Assembly (NCBI RefSeq): GCF_017352215.1 | Contig: NZ_CP071444.1 | Location: 930,001 to 994,000 of the forward strand | Direction of reading: 5' to 3' | Length of the DNA stretch: 64,000 nucleotides | Source: Alkalibacter rhizosphaerae | Lineage (GTDB): Bacteria; Bacillota; Clostridia; Eubacteriales; Alkalibacteraceae | Part shown: positions 19,812 to 25,136 of the stretch, piece by piece | How positions within the stretch are numbered: the stretch's first letter is position 1 | Layout: each line of letters starts with the position of its first letter | Made by a program: the position numbers and the translations under genes | The notes under the pieces: model-generated | Told to the model about the DNA's origin: nothing | Seen by the model: only the letters and a program-made list of their open reading frames with translations | Database searches by the model: none

Positions 19812-20543
19812 TCAGACCAGGATCTCTCCTAAAAAAGCCTGCAATCGTTCATGTTTTGGATTTTCAAAGATCTCTTCTGGCGTTCCTTCCTCTGCGACAA
19901 GTCCGTCATGGAGAAAAATCACCCGGTCTGCCACTTCCTTGGCAAAACCCATTTCGTGGGTGACCACGATCATGGTTCGACCCTCTTCCGCCAGGTCTTT
20001 CATGACTTTCAGCACCTCGCCCACCAACTCCGGATCTAATGCGGAAGTGGGCTCGTCAAACAAGATGACCCGTGGTTCCATGGCCAGGGATCGTGCAATG
20101 GCCACCCGCTGCTGCTGTCCACCGGAAAGCATCTCCGGATAAACGTCCGCTTTATCGGCGATCCCGACTTTTTCAAGCAACTCCATGGCCAGCTTACGCG
20201 CCTTATCCTTCTCCATCTTTTTCACCGTTACCGGCCCTTCCATGACGTTTTCGATAACGCTCATGTGGGGAAAAAGATTGAATCGCTGGAACACCATGCC
20301 CACCTTTTGACGGATCTTGTTGATGCCGTCTTCGGTTTCATCCACCGGCTCTCCGTCGATCCAGATCTCCCCTTCCGTTTTTTTCTCCAAATAATTGATG
20401 CATCGAAGGAGGGTGCTTTTCCCGGAGCCGCTGGCTCCGATCAAGCAGACCACATCGCTTTCCTCTACGGTCAAATCAATGCCCTTCAATACTTCCAAAT
20501 CACCAAAATACTTGTGTAGATCTTTTATTTCGATCATGCTCAT
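19812..20543 (-). CDS. Polar amino-acid ABC transporter ATP-binding protein
   Basis: A 243-residue GlnQ/HisP-type ATPase. Walker A is [18 protein letters not shown], the signature is [17 protein letters not shown], Walker B is [14 protein letters not shown], and the His switch is in [16 protein letters not shown]. It overlaps the permease stop by four bases. It is the third gene of the second amino-acid importer (receptor, permease, ATPase). Confidence 0.95.
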
Positions 20544-21211
20544 CCTCGAACACCTACTTTCAATTTCGTTTCCAGTCGCTGCAGCAGGTTGGCCAGACCC
20601 ATGGTAATGATCAGGTAATAGGATCCTGCCACAAAGAAGATGGGAAATACATCAAAGGTGGCTGCAACGTATTGACGTGCCAGCAACATGGTCTCTGTAA
20701 TGGTGATGACACTGGCCAGTGACGAATCTTTCACGGCTATGATGAATTGATTTCCCAAGGCCGGAATGGAACGTCGAAAGGCCTGGGGCAAAACCACTCG
20801 TCTCAAAGCCTGTACCCTGGTCATACCAAGAGATCTGGCAGCCTCCCGCTGACCAAAGTGGATCGATTCAATGGCCCCTCGAAATATTTCACTGATGTAA
20901 GCTCCGTTGTGAAGGGCCAATCCGATGACGGCCGATGGGAACCGGTCGATCTCGATGCCCATTCCAGGCAGTCCGTAAAAGATGAACCACAGCTGCAGCA
21001 GCAATGGTGTCCCTCGAATTATGGTGATGTATATGTTCATAAGAAATGTCAGCGGCTTCTTCTTGGCCAACTTCAATACCGCCACAAGCAAACCGATGAC
21101 TGTACCCAGCAGAATGGACAAGAATGCCAATTGCAGGGTGGTGATCACGCCTGGTATGAATTTAGGCGTGAATTCTACGACCGTTTTAAAAAAATCAATG
21201 ATTGGATCCAT
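20540..21211 (-). CDS. Polar amino-acid ABC transporter permease
   Basis: A 223-residue membrane subunit with an N-terminal hydrophobic segment (about 20-45) and the family loop [20 protein letters not shown] followed by [17 protein letters not shown]. It is the partner of the ATPase that overlaps its end and of the receptor gene 104 bases upstream, from which it is separated by a hairpin. Confidence 0.94.
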
Positions 21212-21314: not shown

Positions 21315-22112
21315 TTAGTATTGGATCTCCAACAAATTGACATCAAACCATTTCTCACTGATCTGTGCATAGGTCCCATCTTCAATGATCTCCGCCAATG
21401 CTCCATTTACCGCTTCCAGAAGATCCGTGTCTTCTTTTCGAATGGCAATGGCGATATCTTCACTGTATAGCATATCGCCTACTGGCTCAATCTCCACTCC
21501 GTATTCCTTGGGTGCCTGAAGTCCCACAAATATACCGGTGACCAATCCATCGGAACGACCTTGTTCCGCACTCATAAAATTGTCCACATCACTGGAGAAT
21601 TGAAGAATTTCTTCAATATTGTCCATGTCCTGCAATGCTTCATGGAAGGTGGTCCCCGTCACGACACCTACCTTTCCATCGACCAGGTCTTCAATGCTGG
21701 TCAACCCGGAATCGACCGGCGCAAAGAATTGTGCTCCATCATAATAATACGGATCCGTGAAGTTCACTTGTTCCAATCGGTCCGGTGTTATGGCCATGGA
21801 ACCGATGATCATGTCAAATCGATTTCCAGTAAGACCTCCAACGATGCCGTCCCACTCCGTCGTGATGGGAACGGCAGTGACTCCCAGTTTCTCTGCAATG
21901 GCGTTGGCGATGTCGATGTCGAATCCTGCAAGATCTCCATTGTCATCGATAAAGTTGAAAGGCGGATAAGCACCCGTCATGGCGAAGCTCATTTCCCCTT
22001 CCTCCAAGATCCGTTCATAAGTGGTTTGGTCTTCATCCCCACCGGAACATCCCACCAACATGGCAAGACTCAACAATACGACCAACAGCATGATTCCAAT
22101 TTTCTTTGTCAT
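21315..22112 (-). CDS. Polar amino-acid ABC transporter substrate-binding lipoprotein
   Basis: A 265-residue receptor with a lipoprotein signal peptide (LLSLAMLVGC lipobox, Cys about residue 22). The family 3 binding-protein core has the ligand segment DLAGFDIDIANAIAEKLGV and ends with ISEKWFDVNLLEIQY. The start at 22112 has a GGGGGA ribosome site. It is not a duplicate of the importer at the start of the window, although of the same class. The specific amino acid is unknown. A structured leader lies upstream. Confidence 0.93.
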   Translation of the reverse strand: MTKKIGIMLLVVLLSLAMLVGCSGGDEDQTTYERILEEGEMSFAMTGAYPPFNFIDDNGDLAGFDIDIANAIAEKLGVTAVPITTEWDGIVGGLTGNRFDMIIGSMAITPDRLEQVNFTDPYYYDGAQFFAPVDSGLTSIEDLVDGKVGVVTGTTFHEALQDMDNIEEILQFSSDVDNFMSAEQGRSDGLVTGIFVGLQAPKEYGVEIEPVGDMLYSEDIAIAIRKEDTDLLEAVNGALAEIIEDGTYAQISEKWFDVNLLEIQY

Positions 22113-22195
22113 TTCTTTTCCCCCTATTGTCATTTTATTCAGTTCATACACTTCTATTGCATGGCTTTTGGCCAAAATAGACACGGCAAGCAAAT

Positions 22196-22500
22196 AAAAA
22201 ACACTCCAACTCTATAAATATAGAGTTAGAGTGCATAAGCTTCCCTGAATCATCCAACATCAGTTCACTTCACACCACCTGTCGCATTTGCGGTGGGTAG
22301 TATGGGTTATGACCTTTTGATCCTAACCAGGCCCCAGTTCTACAACGACGATTTTTCCACAGGATTTTCATTTGTTCCCCTTTGGTTCGGATGCTTTTAT
22401 CGATCCCCACGCCGTCAGACACGTGAACGGACTCAAACATCAATTACTGATCCTGCTTACTTCACCAGTTGTTTGGGCTATTCTTTTATAATAACTTACC
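22196..22500 (-). ncRNA. Candidate structured RNA (about 300 nt) with own promoter and terminator
   Basis: A promoter directly after the YraQ-like permease stop (22507-22535) and a strong terminator (22202-22233 plus T6) bound a roughly 300-nt unit that holds no convincing protein. It can fold locally: on the minus strand GGTTAGGATC-AAAA-GGTCATAACC makes a compact hairpin and CCACCGC-AAAT-GCGACAGGTGG another, and GTTCAC near the 5' side can pair with GTGAAC near the 3' side. A-rich single-stranded runs (GATAAAAGC, AAAGGGGAACAAATGAAAATCC in part) alternate with stems. It may be a free RNA or the leader of the amino-acid ABC operon. I matched it to no riboswitch class by eye; T-box, SAM, lysine and cobalamin signatures were considered and do not fit. 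Confidence 0.5.
22202..22233 (-). terminator. Terminator ending the 300-nt leader RNA
   Basis: The stem CACTCTAACTCTATA/TATAGAGTTGGAGTG (minus strand, one internal mismatch) is followed by six T residues, 90 bases before the receptor start. Its sequence closely resembles the hairpin at 24208-24239. Confidence 0.85.
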
Positions 22501-22506
22501 TTTTGC

Positions 22507-22535
22507 ATTATAACACTTCTTGTTTTTTTCGTCAA
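22507..22535 (-). promoter_or_regulatory. Promoter of the 300-nt RNA
   Basis: TTGACG (22530-22535) and TATAAT (22507-22512) are separated by exactly 17 bases on the minus strand, starting 13 bases after the permease stop codon. Transcription should begin near 22500. Confidence 0.8.
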
Positions 22536-22548
22536 CTATGCGCAATTA

Positions 22549-23088
22549 TCAGCTGTTCATCTTCACGGCCGTTGCGTAGATCTGGTCCACTTCCTCTTTG
22601 CTGGTGCTTTTGTCCACCAGATGCGCGATGATAAAGATACCCACCATGCTGGCAATCAGGCGGGTGACGGCAAACCTCGTTCCCAATGCCGTCAACTCAA
22701 ATAGAAACATGGGGATCTTGGTGGTGGACCAAGCTCCGATAAAAATCAAAACGTTGGTGAATTTTACCCCTTTTTTCATAAATACGCCTGCCAGGGGAAA
22801 TGCTCCGTACAGAGGACCGGCTGCCGCAGATCCAATAAAAATGGATATAAGGACACCCTTTAAACCACTGCCTTCCCCCATATATTTCATCATGGTTTCT
22901 TTGGGGACCCATACATCCAACAACCCCAGCAGGATGAATATGGGCGGAAGGACCGAAAGCAGTTCCTTGAAACTATACCCGATGGTGTCCAACGCCTTTT
23001 CTCCAGTAGTTGGGGAAAATAGGTACAGTCCGATGGTGACAAGCACCATGACCAACGTGAACCGATATCTCTTTAAAAAGTTCTTCAT
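22549..23088 (-). CDS. Permease, YraQ/DUF318-type, C-terminal half-like
   Basis: A 179-residue membrane protein with about four to five hydrophobic helices, the family G-x-G motif (MKYMGEGSGLKGVLIS) and the conserved small-residue stretch FIGSAAAGPLYGAFPLAGVF. It is the second of two adjacent half-size proteins that together resemble one full YraQ/ArsP-type permease. The four-base overlap (23085-23088) indicates a coupled heteromeric unit. The transported substrate is unknown; related proteins move organoarsenicals or thiosulfate-like ions. Confidence 0.8.
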   Translation of the reverse strand: MKNFLKRYRFTLVMVLVTIGLYLFSPTTGEKALDTIGYSFKELLSVLPPIFILLGLLDVWVPKETMMKYMGEGSGLKGVLISIFIGSAAAGPLYGAFPLAGVFMKKGVKFTNVLIFIGAWSTTKIPMFLFELTALGTRFAVTRLIASMVGIFIIAHLVDKSTSKEEVDQIYATAVKMNS

Positions 23089-23570
23089 ATCTCTCCCATC
23101 ACCTTTCCAATAATAAATGCCACTACAAAAGCATATAAAAATGCCAAGATATTTCTTTTGAAAGTAACCTTTTTCCCGAAAAATTTAGTCTCCAATGGGA
23201 CGGTCACAACGCCCACCATCATCAGGCTGGATACGAAGGCCCCCACCTGCATGTATCCGGCCCCTCCATGCAGCAACAGGGCCGCTGTTGGAAATGCGAT
23301 AAATCCTGGAATGAGGGTGATCCCCCCAACAATGGCAGCCAGTGCAACACCCAACCAACCGGATCCGCTGCCGATAAACCTGCTGATGGTTTGGGGATCA
23401 ATGACGGCCAACATGACCCCAACCAATATAATGATCCCAATAAATTGGGGCATCATATTCTCGATGGACTTTACCGCCTTCATCACACTTTTTTTCGTCT
23501 TCATTTTATCCTTGCTATAGGACAAAATCAGCAATCCGATCGCCAATAAATAAAACATTGCTGTTTGCAT
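23085..23570 (-). CDS. Permease, YraQ/DUF318-type, N-terminal half-like
   Basis: A 161-residue membrane protein with the matching half-motif SRFIGSGSGWLGVALAAIVG and GFIAFPTAALLLHGGAGYMQ. It starts with a hydrophobic helix (residues 2-18) and has about four further segments. It precedes its partner gene with an ATGA overlap and follows the PadR gene by 69 bases, forming a regulator-permease operon. Confidence 0.8.
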   Translation of the reverse strand: MQTAMFYLLAIGLLILSYSKDKMKTKKSVMKAVKSIENMMPQFIGIIILVGVMLAVIDPQTISRFIGSGSGWLGVALAAIVGGITLIPGFIAFPTAALLLHGGAGYMQVGAFVSSLMMVGVVTVPLETKFFGKKVTFKRNILAFLYAFVVAFIIGKVMGEI

Positions 23571-23639: not shown

Positions 23640-24026
23640 TTATTCTGCCTCGTCATCCAGACCGCAGTTCTTTTCGTATACTTCTAAAAATCGTTGGATC
23701 CGCTTTTTCCTTTCCTGAAAAACCATATGCCATTCATTCAAGTCCGATACTCCCTGCGGGGTGATCTCGTAGACCCGTCGATTGGGTCCTCCCTCTCCCT
23801 CTTCCCACTTGGAGATGACCAGACCGCTCTTTTCCATTTTTCGCAAGGTTCGGTACAAGGTGCTGGCATTGAGTTCGTTCGTGTCAAATCCCAGCTGTTC
23901 CAACTGCTCCATCAAACCATACCCATGTGCGCACTGCTTTTTCAACAACAGCAGCAAGCTTGCTTCCAAAAACATTCCCATTCTATGGTCTTTCCCGGGA
24001 CAATGAAACGTTTTGTCATGGTCCAC
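23640..24026 (-). CDS. PadR-family transcriptional regulator
   Basis: A 128-residue winged-helix regulator: LEASLLLLLKKQCAHGYGLM, then NELNASTLYRTLRKMEKSGL and RRVYEITPQGVSDLNEW are the PadR signatures. The N-terminus HCPGKDHR carries Cys and His residues that could sense metal or redox. The start is a GTG at 24026, eight bases after AGAAGG; no closer ATG fits. Probable control target: its own operon with the two permease halves. Upstream the motif AACTATAT occurs twice as a direct repeat near 24075-24100. Confidence 0.88.
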   Translation of the reverse strand: MDHDKTFHCPGKDHRMGMFLEASLLLLLKKQCAHGYGLMEQLEQLGFDTNELNASTLYRTLRKMEKSGLVISKWEEGEGGPNRRVYEITPQGVSDLNEWHMVFQERKKRIQRFLEVYEKNCGLDDEAE

Positions 24027-24137: not shown

Positions 24138-24166
24138 TTGACAGACTTTTCTTGCTATGATACAAT
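24138..24166 (+). promoter_or_regulatory. Promoter of ablB
   Basis: TTGACA (24138-24143), 17 bases, TACAAT (24161-24166). The predicted start near 24173 leaves only about 35 bases before a terminator hairpin. Confidence 0.75.
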
Positions 24167-24207
24167 ATGCCACGAATTCCATTTGAAACAGTGAATCAGA
24201 TATAAGG

Positions 24208-24250
24208 CACACCAACTCCATCTTTATAGAGTCAGTGTGATCTTTTTTTT
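24208..24250 (+). terminator. Leader terminator in front of ablB
   Basis: An interrupted stem CACAC..ACTC / GAGT..GTGTG at 24208-24239 is followed by eight T residues (24243-24250 with TC before). It lies between the promoter and the ablB start, so it must be read through or regulated for expression. It is similar in sequence to the terminator at 22202-22233 on the other strand. Confidence 0.65.
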
Positions 24251-24284
24251 ACTGAATATTATCGATACGAAGGAAGTGCATTCA

Positions 24285-25136
24285 ATGAAAGACACCATCA
24301 CCACGTTTTCAAAAAGTCTGATACAACATGGAAAGGAAAGCGATCGACTCTATCTAATGCGGCTGGATCCTGAAGAAGATGCCGGTTTTATTCGAGATTT
24401 GGAAGATCTGGCATTAAAAAGACAATACGGAAAAATTGTTGCTAAAGTCCCTGCAACCGCTGAAGGCTTTTTTCTGGAATCTGGATTCGTCAAAGAAGCA
24501 GAAGTCCCTTCCTACTTTGACAACATGGAAGACTGCCTCTTCATGGCAAAATATTACGATCATCGCCGGGCTAGAGACCGCTCCAAAGCTGTAGTGGACG
24601 AAGTTCTTCAAACGGCTCTAAGCAAAGAAGGCAGCAAAAATTGCTCTCTCGACCCATTGGATCCGAATATGGAACTTCGTCCATGTACCAAAGACGATGC
24701 AAAATCCATGGCCCAACTCTACAAAAAGGTTTTTGCTACTTATCCATTCCCCATAGACCGAGCATCCTACCTGAAAGAAACCATGGTTGAAGACACCCGA
24801 TATTATGGTATATTCAAAGACGACATTCCTGTCGCCCTTGCCAGTGTGGATCAGGATCCAATCAACCGCACCGGCGAATTGACGGATTTTGCCACAGATT
24901 CGGATCATCAGGGTGAATCACTGGCAACGCGATTGTTGTACAGGATGGAAGAAGACATGAAAAACAAAGGGTACGAAACCCTCTATACCATCACAAGATC
25001 CACCTCCTTGGGAGTCAACACCATATTTGCCAAATCCGATTACGAATTCACCGGAACCCTGATCAACAACACCCAAATATCCGGAAGAGTGGAGAGCATG
25101 AATGTATGGCATAAAAAAGTGCAGCAATCAACTTGA
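24285..25136 (+). CDS. ablB: Putative beta-lysine N6-acetyltransferase
   Basis: A 283-residue GNAT enzyme that acetylates beta-lysine to the compatible solute N6-acetyl-beta-lysine. The N-terminal AblB-specific domain carries YGKIVAKVPATAEGFFLESG and DNMEDCLFMAKYY; the C-terminal GNAT core has FATDSDHQGESLATRLLYRM as acetyl-CoA loop and the SLGVNTIFAKSDYEFTGTL ending. The start at 24285 follows AAGGAAG. The usual partner ablA (lysine 2,3-aminomutase) is not in the window, so ablB stands alone here. A leader terminator suggests regulated expression. Confidence 0.88.
   Translation: MKDTITTFSKSLIQHGKESDRLYLMRLDPEEDAGFIRDLEDLALKRQYGKIVAKVPATAEGFFLESGFVKEAEVPSYFDNMEDCLFMAKYYDHRRARDRSKAVVDEVLQTALSKEGSKNCSLDPLDPNMELRPCTKDDAKSMAQLYKKVFATYPFPIDRASYLKETMVEDTRYYGIFKDDIPVALASVDQDPINRTGELTDFATDSDHQGESLATRLLYRMEEDMKNKGYETLYTITRSTSLGVNTIFAKSDYEFTGTLINNTQISGRVESMNVWHKKVQQST

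Follow-up and report, generated by a model that had tools for sequence, protein, structure and literature searches.

The leader RNA described here probably represents a new riboswitch-like class that acts in cis through transcription termination and controls the accumulation of protective solutes, as judged from sequence comparison among its relatives. It is located on the minus strand of the window, the 64,000-nucleotide stretch of the Alkalibacter rhizosphaerae genome that was analyzed, ahead of an amino-acid ABC importer operon (Table 1). In many anaerobic bacteria, genes for the uptake or synthesis of protective solutes lie downstream of the RNA, and they are therefore probably switched by it under osmotic stress. 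A structured RNA that exhibits such covariation, occurs in 26/397 other genomes of a phylum-wide sample, and has no Rfam 15 match is a rare find today. This one leader would tie together several otherwise separate osmoprotection systems, and therefore offers a direct route to osmotic-stress sensing in anaerobes, acetogens included. It also gives a clue to what unassigned amino-acid ABC importers and a new fusion enzyme may do, and the specificity of the fold, the gene set, and the switch model allows tests by in vitro transcription.

The Leader Unit

A promoter-to-terminator unit of about 300 nt without a protein, as claimed by the first-pass annotation, is present on the minus strand at 22535-22195, and 24 copies retain this unit. 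The sigma-A promoter with 17-base spacing that was claimed after the permease stop is found as TTGACG-17-TATAAT at 22535-22507, an 11/12 match to the consensus with TG ahead of the -10 element; the stop preceding the leader RNA is that of an ArsP-like half-permease (22549-23088). The strong hairpin and T-run, which had been placed some 90 bases before an amino-acid receptor gene, correspond to a terminator at 22234-22201 on the minus strand with 15 pairs and a loop of 4, followed by the T-run, and the gene for a family-3 solute-binding lipoprotein follows 83-90 nt after its end, with a likely ATG at 22112. No ORF of at least 60 aa, the length limit used, occurs on the strand of the RNA, which excludes a long translated ORF.

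Pattern counts alone are not above chance, with 3 promoter-like sites in the region vs 1.8 in shuffles and 1 terminator-like pattern vs 1.1, and the unit is regarded as not due to chance because it is conserved in relatives. A promoter-like site (at least 9/12) is observed within 90 nt before the 5' motif of the RNA in 24/24 close copies, where 5.8 are expected from shuffles. Furthermore, the fold stability of 22500-22196 exceeds that of 100/100 shuffles (z -3.44).

Table 1. Features of the leader RNA locus and its surroundings, in window coordinates.
Feature	Position	Strand	Description
Sigma-A type promoter	22507..22535	-	-35 TTGACG, 17-nt spacer, -10 TATAAT
Conserved leader RNA	22195..22500	-	Predicted start ~22500; 3' end in T-run past terminator
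Conserved 5' motif GUGAAGUA	22458..22465	-	Columns 5-12 of alignment A3
P1 5' strand	22450..22457	-	Pairs with 22358-22365; covariation scan, pair counts
P2 hairpin	22399..22432	-	5' strand 22420-22432, 3' strand 22399-22411; helix 1
P1 3' strand	22358..22365	-	Covariation scan, pair counts
GAAAAA(C/U) joining segment, 5' to 3' domain	22351..22357	-	Conserved
Proposed P4 5' strand (UAGAACUGGGG)	22332..22342	-	Among the most conserved segments
P5 hairpin	22305..22328	-	Helices 2-3
P6 hairpin	22271..22304	-	Helix 4
P7 hairpin with internal loop	22237..22270	-	Helices 5-6
Terminator left arm	22221..22236	-	CACUCUA nearly invariant in family; 22221-22231 doubles as proposed P4 3' strand
Terminator right arm	22199..22214	-	T-run directly after
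Downstream gene 1: family-3 solute-binding lipoprotein, amino-acid ABC importer	21315..22112	-	PF00497, 144.9 bits
Downstream gene 2: ABC permease	20540..21211	-	TIGR01726, 110.4 bits vs cut-off 42.2
Downstream gene 3: ABC ATPase, GlnQ/TcyN-like	19812..20543	-	Best NCBIfam matches, under cut-offs
Truncated second leader before ablB	24138..24250	+	Promoter-like TTGACA..GATACAAT and family-type terminator kept, rest gone
ablB, putative beta-lysine N-acetyltransferase	24282..25136	+	TIGR03827, 306 bits vs cut-off 205

Distribution of the RNA

Searching 101 genomes (this one and 100 relatives) by blastn at E<=1 gave matches in 78/101, mostly at chance level. Strong partial matches came from members of the same genus, family, and order. 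A profile search of the fetched loci yielded 24 full copies, namely that of the window and 23 from relatives; the same-genus genome G001 holds two full copies and G002, also of the genus, one partial copy.

More distant copies were sought with a covariance model, R1, which comprises the 3' part and the terminator (148 positions); its E-values are rough, and since stricter filters apply in large searches, misses are no proof of absence. The order sample gave matches in 21/67 genomes at E<=0.1, 18 of them at E<1e-20; the remaining three are two matches at chance level and the decayed copy of G002. Many weak R1 rows of this sample are antisense matches of the palindromic terminator. In the phylum sample, matches at E<=0.1 occur in 36/398 genomes and those below 1e-5 in 27 (this genome included), which places the RNA, at E<1e-5, in 26/397 other genomes of this phylum-wide sample. 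The class sample provided 18/391 genomes at E<=0.001, with 13 below 1e-5.

An exact-pattern scan of named genomes found 35 stretches, with members in Acetobacterium wieringae, paludosum, bakii, and dehalogenans, Thermincola ferriacetica, Fusibacter, Maledivibacter halophilus, Anaerosacchariphilus, and MAGs labelled Fusobacteriia and Spirochaetia; 21/35 were taken as loci already counted, and the other 14 were added as new copies. A similarity search for the RNA in plasmid and phage DNA returned no match. The resulting set of 78 copies consists of 24 close ones, 33 from the phylum sample, the Acetobacterium-type locus L148, 14 from the pattern scan, and 6 from the class sample, the last being strong new copies with the weak loci L206-L209 left out.

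A Covarying Two-Domain Fold

The fold was derived from an alignment, A3, of 51 diverse full-length copies. It excludes L146 and L147 (weak R1 matches with no 5' motif seen and no matching gene), L122 (shortened 5' half), L171 (a run of N), and near-duplicate copies. RNAalifold predicts 51 pairs on A3, with compensatory change in 40/51. On this structure, 93.1% of cells are paired vs 75.8% in shuffled and 36-46% in slid alignments, and the covariation score is 0.583 vs 0.266, with 0/500 shuffles as high. Covariation among relatives, the check attached to the original claim, thus came out in favor of the RNA, with 505 cells in which both sides are altered vs 165 in shuffles. A structure-free covariation scan found the same helices again and, beyond them, P1 (columns 13-20 with 192-199) and P1b (columns 27-29 with 185-187). 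The cells of P1 and P1b are paired in 78.7% of cases vs 49.9% shuffled and at most 52% slid, and their covariation score is 0.764 vs 0.252; 11 of their pairs carry a double change, a number equal to the shuffle count.

Comparison thus shows a two-domain fold with heavy covariation for the leader RNA. The 5' domain comprises P1, P1b, and P2 together with the conserved GUGAAGUA, AGUA, and GAG segments, and the 3' domain carries GAACUGGGG at its head, followed by P5-P6-P7, with GAAAAA joining it to the 5' domain. The pairing of the ends through GTTCAC/GTGAAC that had been claimed is not borne out: both stretches exist, but relatives place them in separate local helices, P2 and P7, and the long-range pairing was rejected as absent from the top covarying pairs. 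Two further candidates were also dropped. A GGCUU x GUGAG pairing, obtained by RNAalifold with the 24 close copies only, was replaced by P5/P6/P7 with 51 sequences, and the close set pointed to an antiterminator pairing GAGUUA x UAACUC that the window copy lacks.

Some copies deviate from this scheme. In L137, L139, and L145, the core is changed (CUGGGG replaced) along with the terminator arm (CUAGUC, not CUAACUC), and these copies are possibly a sub-class with other specificity. The copy at L122 (6042-6200), before ablA, has a much shortened 5' domain with 3' domain and terminator present, and is perhaps a minimal version of the RNA.

Genes Behind the RNA

Reference proteins were compared with the sequence that follows each of the 78 copies, over at most 3.5 kb, and osmoprotection-type genes were found downstream on the same strand in 74/78, a count uncorrected for relatedness. 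The targets are family-3 binding proteins (30 copies), AblA (27), AblB as first gene (3), the ProV-like ATPase of a glycine betaine ABC transporter (8), the BCCT carrier (6), and none (4); the family names were taken from representatives, with TIGR03820 for AblA, TIGR03827 for AblB (three proteins), TIGR01186 for ProV, TIGR00842/PF02028 for BCCT, PF04069 for OpuAC, and PF00497. Two of the misses, L146 and L147, are weak matches lacking the 5' motif, and the other two, L170 and L202, lie before a fusion of a PLP enzyme with a GNAT acetyltransferase. For phylum-sample loci with E<=2.8e-5, a target gene is present in 31/31.

AblA makes beta-lysine, and AblA and AblB together give N-epsilon-acetyl-beta-lysine, a compatible solute according to the available text of PMC9337991. 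In the order, AblB is over its cut-off in 17/67 genomes, and in 13/17 of these ablA or ablB directly follows the RNA; of the other four, two keep a decayed remnant there (G002 and this genome, G000) and two have no copy there (G005 and G006). Several genomes (among them G001, G031, G035, G041, G195, and G111) carry two copies before two different targets. The predicted gene families have osmoprotection as their common theme, with family-3 importers presumably counting among the osmoprotection genes; in the window, the binding protein scores below every cut-off of the substrate-naming NCBIfam models. The fusions of a PLP enzyme (PF00291) with GNAT behind the RNA are encoded at L202 1631-3007 and L170 6049-7353, and their leader makes them candidate makers of an acetylated osmolyte.

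These targets bear on what the RNA was first taken to be. A new RNA with the nature of a riboswitch or attenuator stands in kind, given the absence of an Rfam match, the strong covariation, and the cis position in 74/78 copies. Amino-acid sensing as such, which had been named with it, is unsupported because the same RNA also precedes genes for glycine betaine ABC transporters, BCCT carriers, and beta-lysine osmolyte synthesis.

Relation to Known RNA Families

The comparison with Rfam that the first-pass annotation had named as a check was run by cmscan, and none of 4227 Rfam 15 families matches at the RNA in the window at the gathering threshold. The same holds for the RNA in 10 close loci (one from this genome) and 18/34 distant loci. 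At permissive settings, Rfam 15 gave only a sub-threshold sno_ncR3 match (E 8.1) for the window copy and only CopA (E 1.9), likewise sub-threshold, for a distant copy, and nothing convincing for the decayed G002 copy. Among individual families, the c-di-AMP riboswitch RF00379 has no match at the RNA, its matches in this genome lying elsewhere only; Na+-I (RF03071) matches neither at the RNA nor anywhere in this genome (G000); and the T-box RF00230 is absent at the RNA, with T-boxes found elsewhere in two of the same loci.

The RNA therefore appears to be an undescribed class, within the limits of the open full-text literature, where no report of such an RNA was recognized; subscription papers and supplements were beyond reach, and an unseen report is possible. 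Its nearest counterparts are the proX, opuB, and trpB motifs, which are tentatively set apart here by their published descriptions. The proX (PMC8632094) and opuB (PMC11109978) motifs are likewise riboswitch candidates before betaine or compatible-solute transporter genes, but are described mainly from Spiribacter and saltwater samples and from Enterobacteriaceae, with translational control proposed. The trpB motif (PMC11109978) is described as a terminator-bearing leader of Firmicutes and Fusobacteria that mostly precedes an amino-acid-type ABC transporter; unlike the present RNA, which has more helices, it has at least two hairpins and sometimes precedes trpB, a gene that is first behind none of the 78 copies.

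A Proposed Switch Between P4 and the Terminator

The left arm of the terminator seems to be conserved beyond the needs of the hairpin. In the 39 rows that A3 retains without the 12 found by a pattern requiring the left arm, CACTCTA is present in 36/39 and the right arm TAGAGTG in 22/39; because R1, the source of most of these rows, contains both terminator arms and 12/51 rows were found by the left-arm pattern, this invariance is partly a selection effect. The left arm is complementary to the conserved head of the 3' domain; NRGARCUGGGG would pair with CUCUAACUCUN around a central C.A step, in a helix termed P4 whose register was taken from the covariation scan.

The cells of P4 are paired in 94.6% of cases vs 88.4% shuffled and 32-64% slid, and double-change cells number 29 vs 11.6 in shuffles. 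On 2/5 measures, the changed-pair and pair-type counts, there is no clear win over shuffles (26 and 160 of 500). P4 is mostly invariant in the family. On a tree built without the P4 columns, both ends of the outer pair 224-401 change on 2 branches, with pairing kept on 1, which is background-like; on each of the two branches on which column 229 changes, 396 changes with it. With the right arm left out, energy folding shows no dominant partner of the left arm, and the probability of P4 has a median of 0.08 over 51 copies (0.02 for the window), exceeding 0.5 in 13/51. In the full transcript, the terminator is predicted to be dominant, with a mean probability of 0.93.

An ON switch is suggested by the ability of the terminator left arm to pair with the conserved GAACUGGGG strand. 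The P4 helix and the ON direction are likely, and are stated no more firmly because the tree test is background-like and the energy weight is small; a helix that is weak alone could be usable by a ligand-dependent switch. In the proposed mechanism, RNA polymerase transcribes the leader, and if no signal is present the very stable terminator would form and the operon would be off. Binding of the signal would let P4 (NRGARCUGGGG with CUCUAACUCUN) close the 3' domain, bringing P5-P6-P7 into a junction. P4 would then occupy the left arm and exclude the terminator, and transcription would continue into the operon, which in this genome is that of the amino-acid ABC importer.

Which Signal Is Read

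The RNA most likely responds to a marker of osmotic state. Intracellular K+ or Na+ is the best fit to an ON switch and c-di-AMP the best fit to the gene set, and we place a monovalent cation slightly ahead of c-di-AMP.

An ON riboswitch that senses K+/Na+ or ionic strength, with a logic like that of Na+-I and an unrelated fold, is put forward tentatively. Na+-I (the DUF1646 motif, RF03071) is described in the available text of PMC9337991 as having an aptamer that overlaps the terminator, ON logic, and ablA as a target, the last in Dehalobacter; the overlap of a proposed aptamer helix with the terminator predicts ligand-ON here as well, both features being only proposed for the new RNA. The target classes would also be useful at high salt. 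Against this reading, the RNA (~250 nt) greatly exceeds the 55 positions of the RF03071 model, and of the RF03071 copies in five Acetobacterium-type genomes, 4 precede rnfC and 1 a Na+/H+ antiporter gene, with G046 holding both RNAs before separate targets. Because of these separate targets, Na+ would already have its own sensor in Acetobacterium-type genomes.

As a side observation, the new RNA and Na+-I are nearly complementary over 17 Acetobacterium-type genomes: an RF03071 match of at least 40 bits is found in 4/4 genomes without the new RNA (one at 40.2, just under the cut-off) and in 1/13 with it. Replacement of the RNA by Na+-I was rejected as a same-gene swap, because RF03071 serves rnfC and a Na+/H+ antiporter in these genomes. 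Carried further, the cation reading would make this large riboswitch an RNA osmosensor that turns on compatible-solute uptake and synthesis upon reading K+/Na+, with the PLP/acetyltransferase fusion among its targets as an osmolyte-making enzyme; this full picture is speculative.

A second c-di-AMP riboswitch class of unrelated architecture, in which high c-di-AMP would favor the terminator (OFF), is possible but somewhat doubtful. c-di-AMP is a lead because the canonical c-di-AMP riboswitches of this genome precede similar gene types. There are three (L188, L196, and L198), of which one stands before a glutamate 2,3-aminomutase-like gene and the other two before family-3 binding-protein genes that are neighbours; as RF00379 and the new RNA thus stand before related genes in one genome, two RNA classes serve related gene types. 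Within the genus, RF00379 copies precede the glutamate 2,3-aminomutase-like gene in 3/3 genomes and family-3 binding-protein genes in 2/3. The known class (ydaO-yuaA) is likewise a leader before amino-acid transporter and osmotic-stress genes, and is described in the available text of PMC7266159 with amino-acid transporters and osmotic-shock genes. An RF00379 match was found in 0/17 Acetobacterium-type genomes searched, and the new RNA in 13/17.

The two RNAs differ, however, in helices and conserved motifs and give no covariance match: R1 against 12 loci fetched with RF00379 (10 over its cut-off) and the RF00379 model against the RNA both found nothing at E<=10. Since 3/10 RF00379 loci (L185, L187, and L189) have no reference gene within ~1.5 kb, the gene sets overlap only partly, and a K+ transporter was recognized as first gene in 0/78 copies, whereas the known class is described with K+ transporters. 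Furthermore, the proposed overlap of P4 and terminator suggests ON rather than OFF, and c-di-AMP riboswitches are described as OFF switches in the available text of PMC9337991, opposite to the direction predicted here.

Two identities considered around these riboswitches were rejected. Homology to the c-di-AMP riboswitch had been raised by similar short words seen by eye in RF00379 copies, and model comparison found nothing. The aminomutase-like gene behind one RF00379 copy of this genome is not taken as ablA, as it scores 476 on the AblA model vs a cut-off of 525; on the glutamate 2,3-aminomutase model it reaches 635 bits vs a cut-off of 650, just under. Beta-glutamate may be the osmolyte behind this c-di-AMP riboswitch.

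A leader read by a protein antiterminator, by an osmolyte such as glycine betaine or N-acetyl-beta-lysine, or by an amino acid is rather unlikely. Protein or metabolite sites could be provided by the conserved purine-rich motifs that lie in no predicted helix (GUGAAGUA, AGUA, and GAAAAA), and the target genes handle such solutes. However, these solutes differ (betaine, beta-lysine, and amino acids), and one product as ligand therefore explains only some targets; a two-domain covarying fold of ~250 nt would also be unusual as a protein site. A free trans-acting small RNA merely near these genes, which would account for the own promoter and the strong, predictedly dominant terminator, is very improbable and, having been suggested by the first-pass annotation, is unsupported as the main role because the copies track downstream gene types, lying upstream and on the same strand of a narrow gene set in 74/78 cases across different neighbourhoods, and in several genomes twice before two different targets.

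A Decayed Second Leader and Its Neighbourhood

A second leader, on the plus strand before ablB, gives a weak profile match in its terminator part only, and this copy has decayed. No AblA over the cut-off is found in this genome. In G002, of the same genus, the leader before ablA (L055 5980-6500) has its terminator kept, and a repeat-like insertion of ~350 bp replaces P6/P7 as judged by eye. Between the two leaders of the window, at 22549-23570 and 23640-24026, lie two adjacent half-size ArsP-like permeases, of which the second is just below the Pfam cut-off, and a PadR-type regulator.
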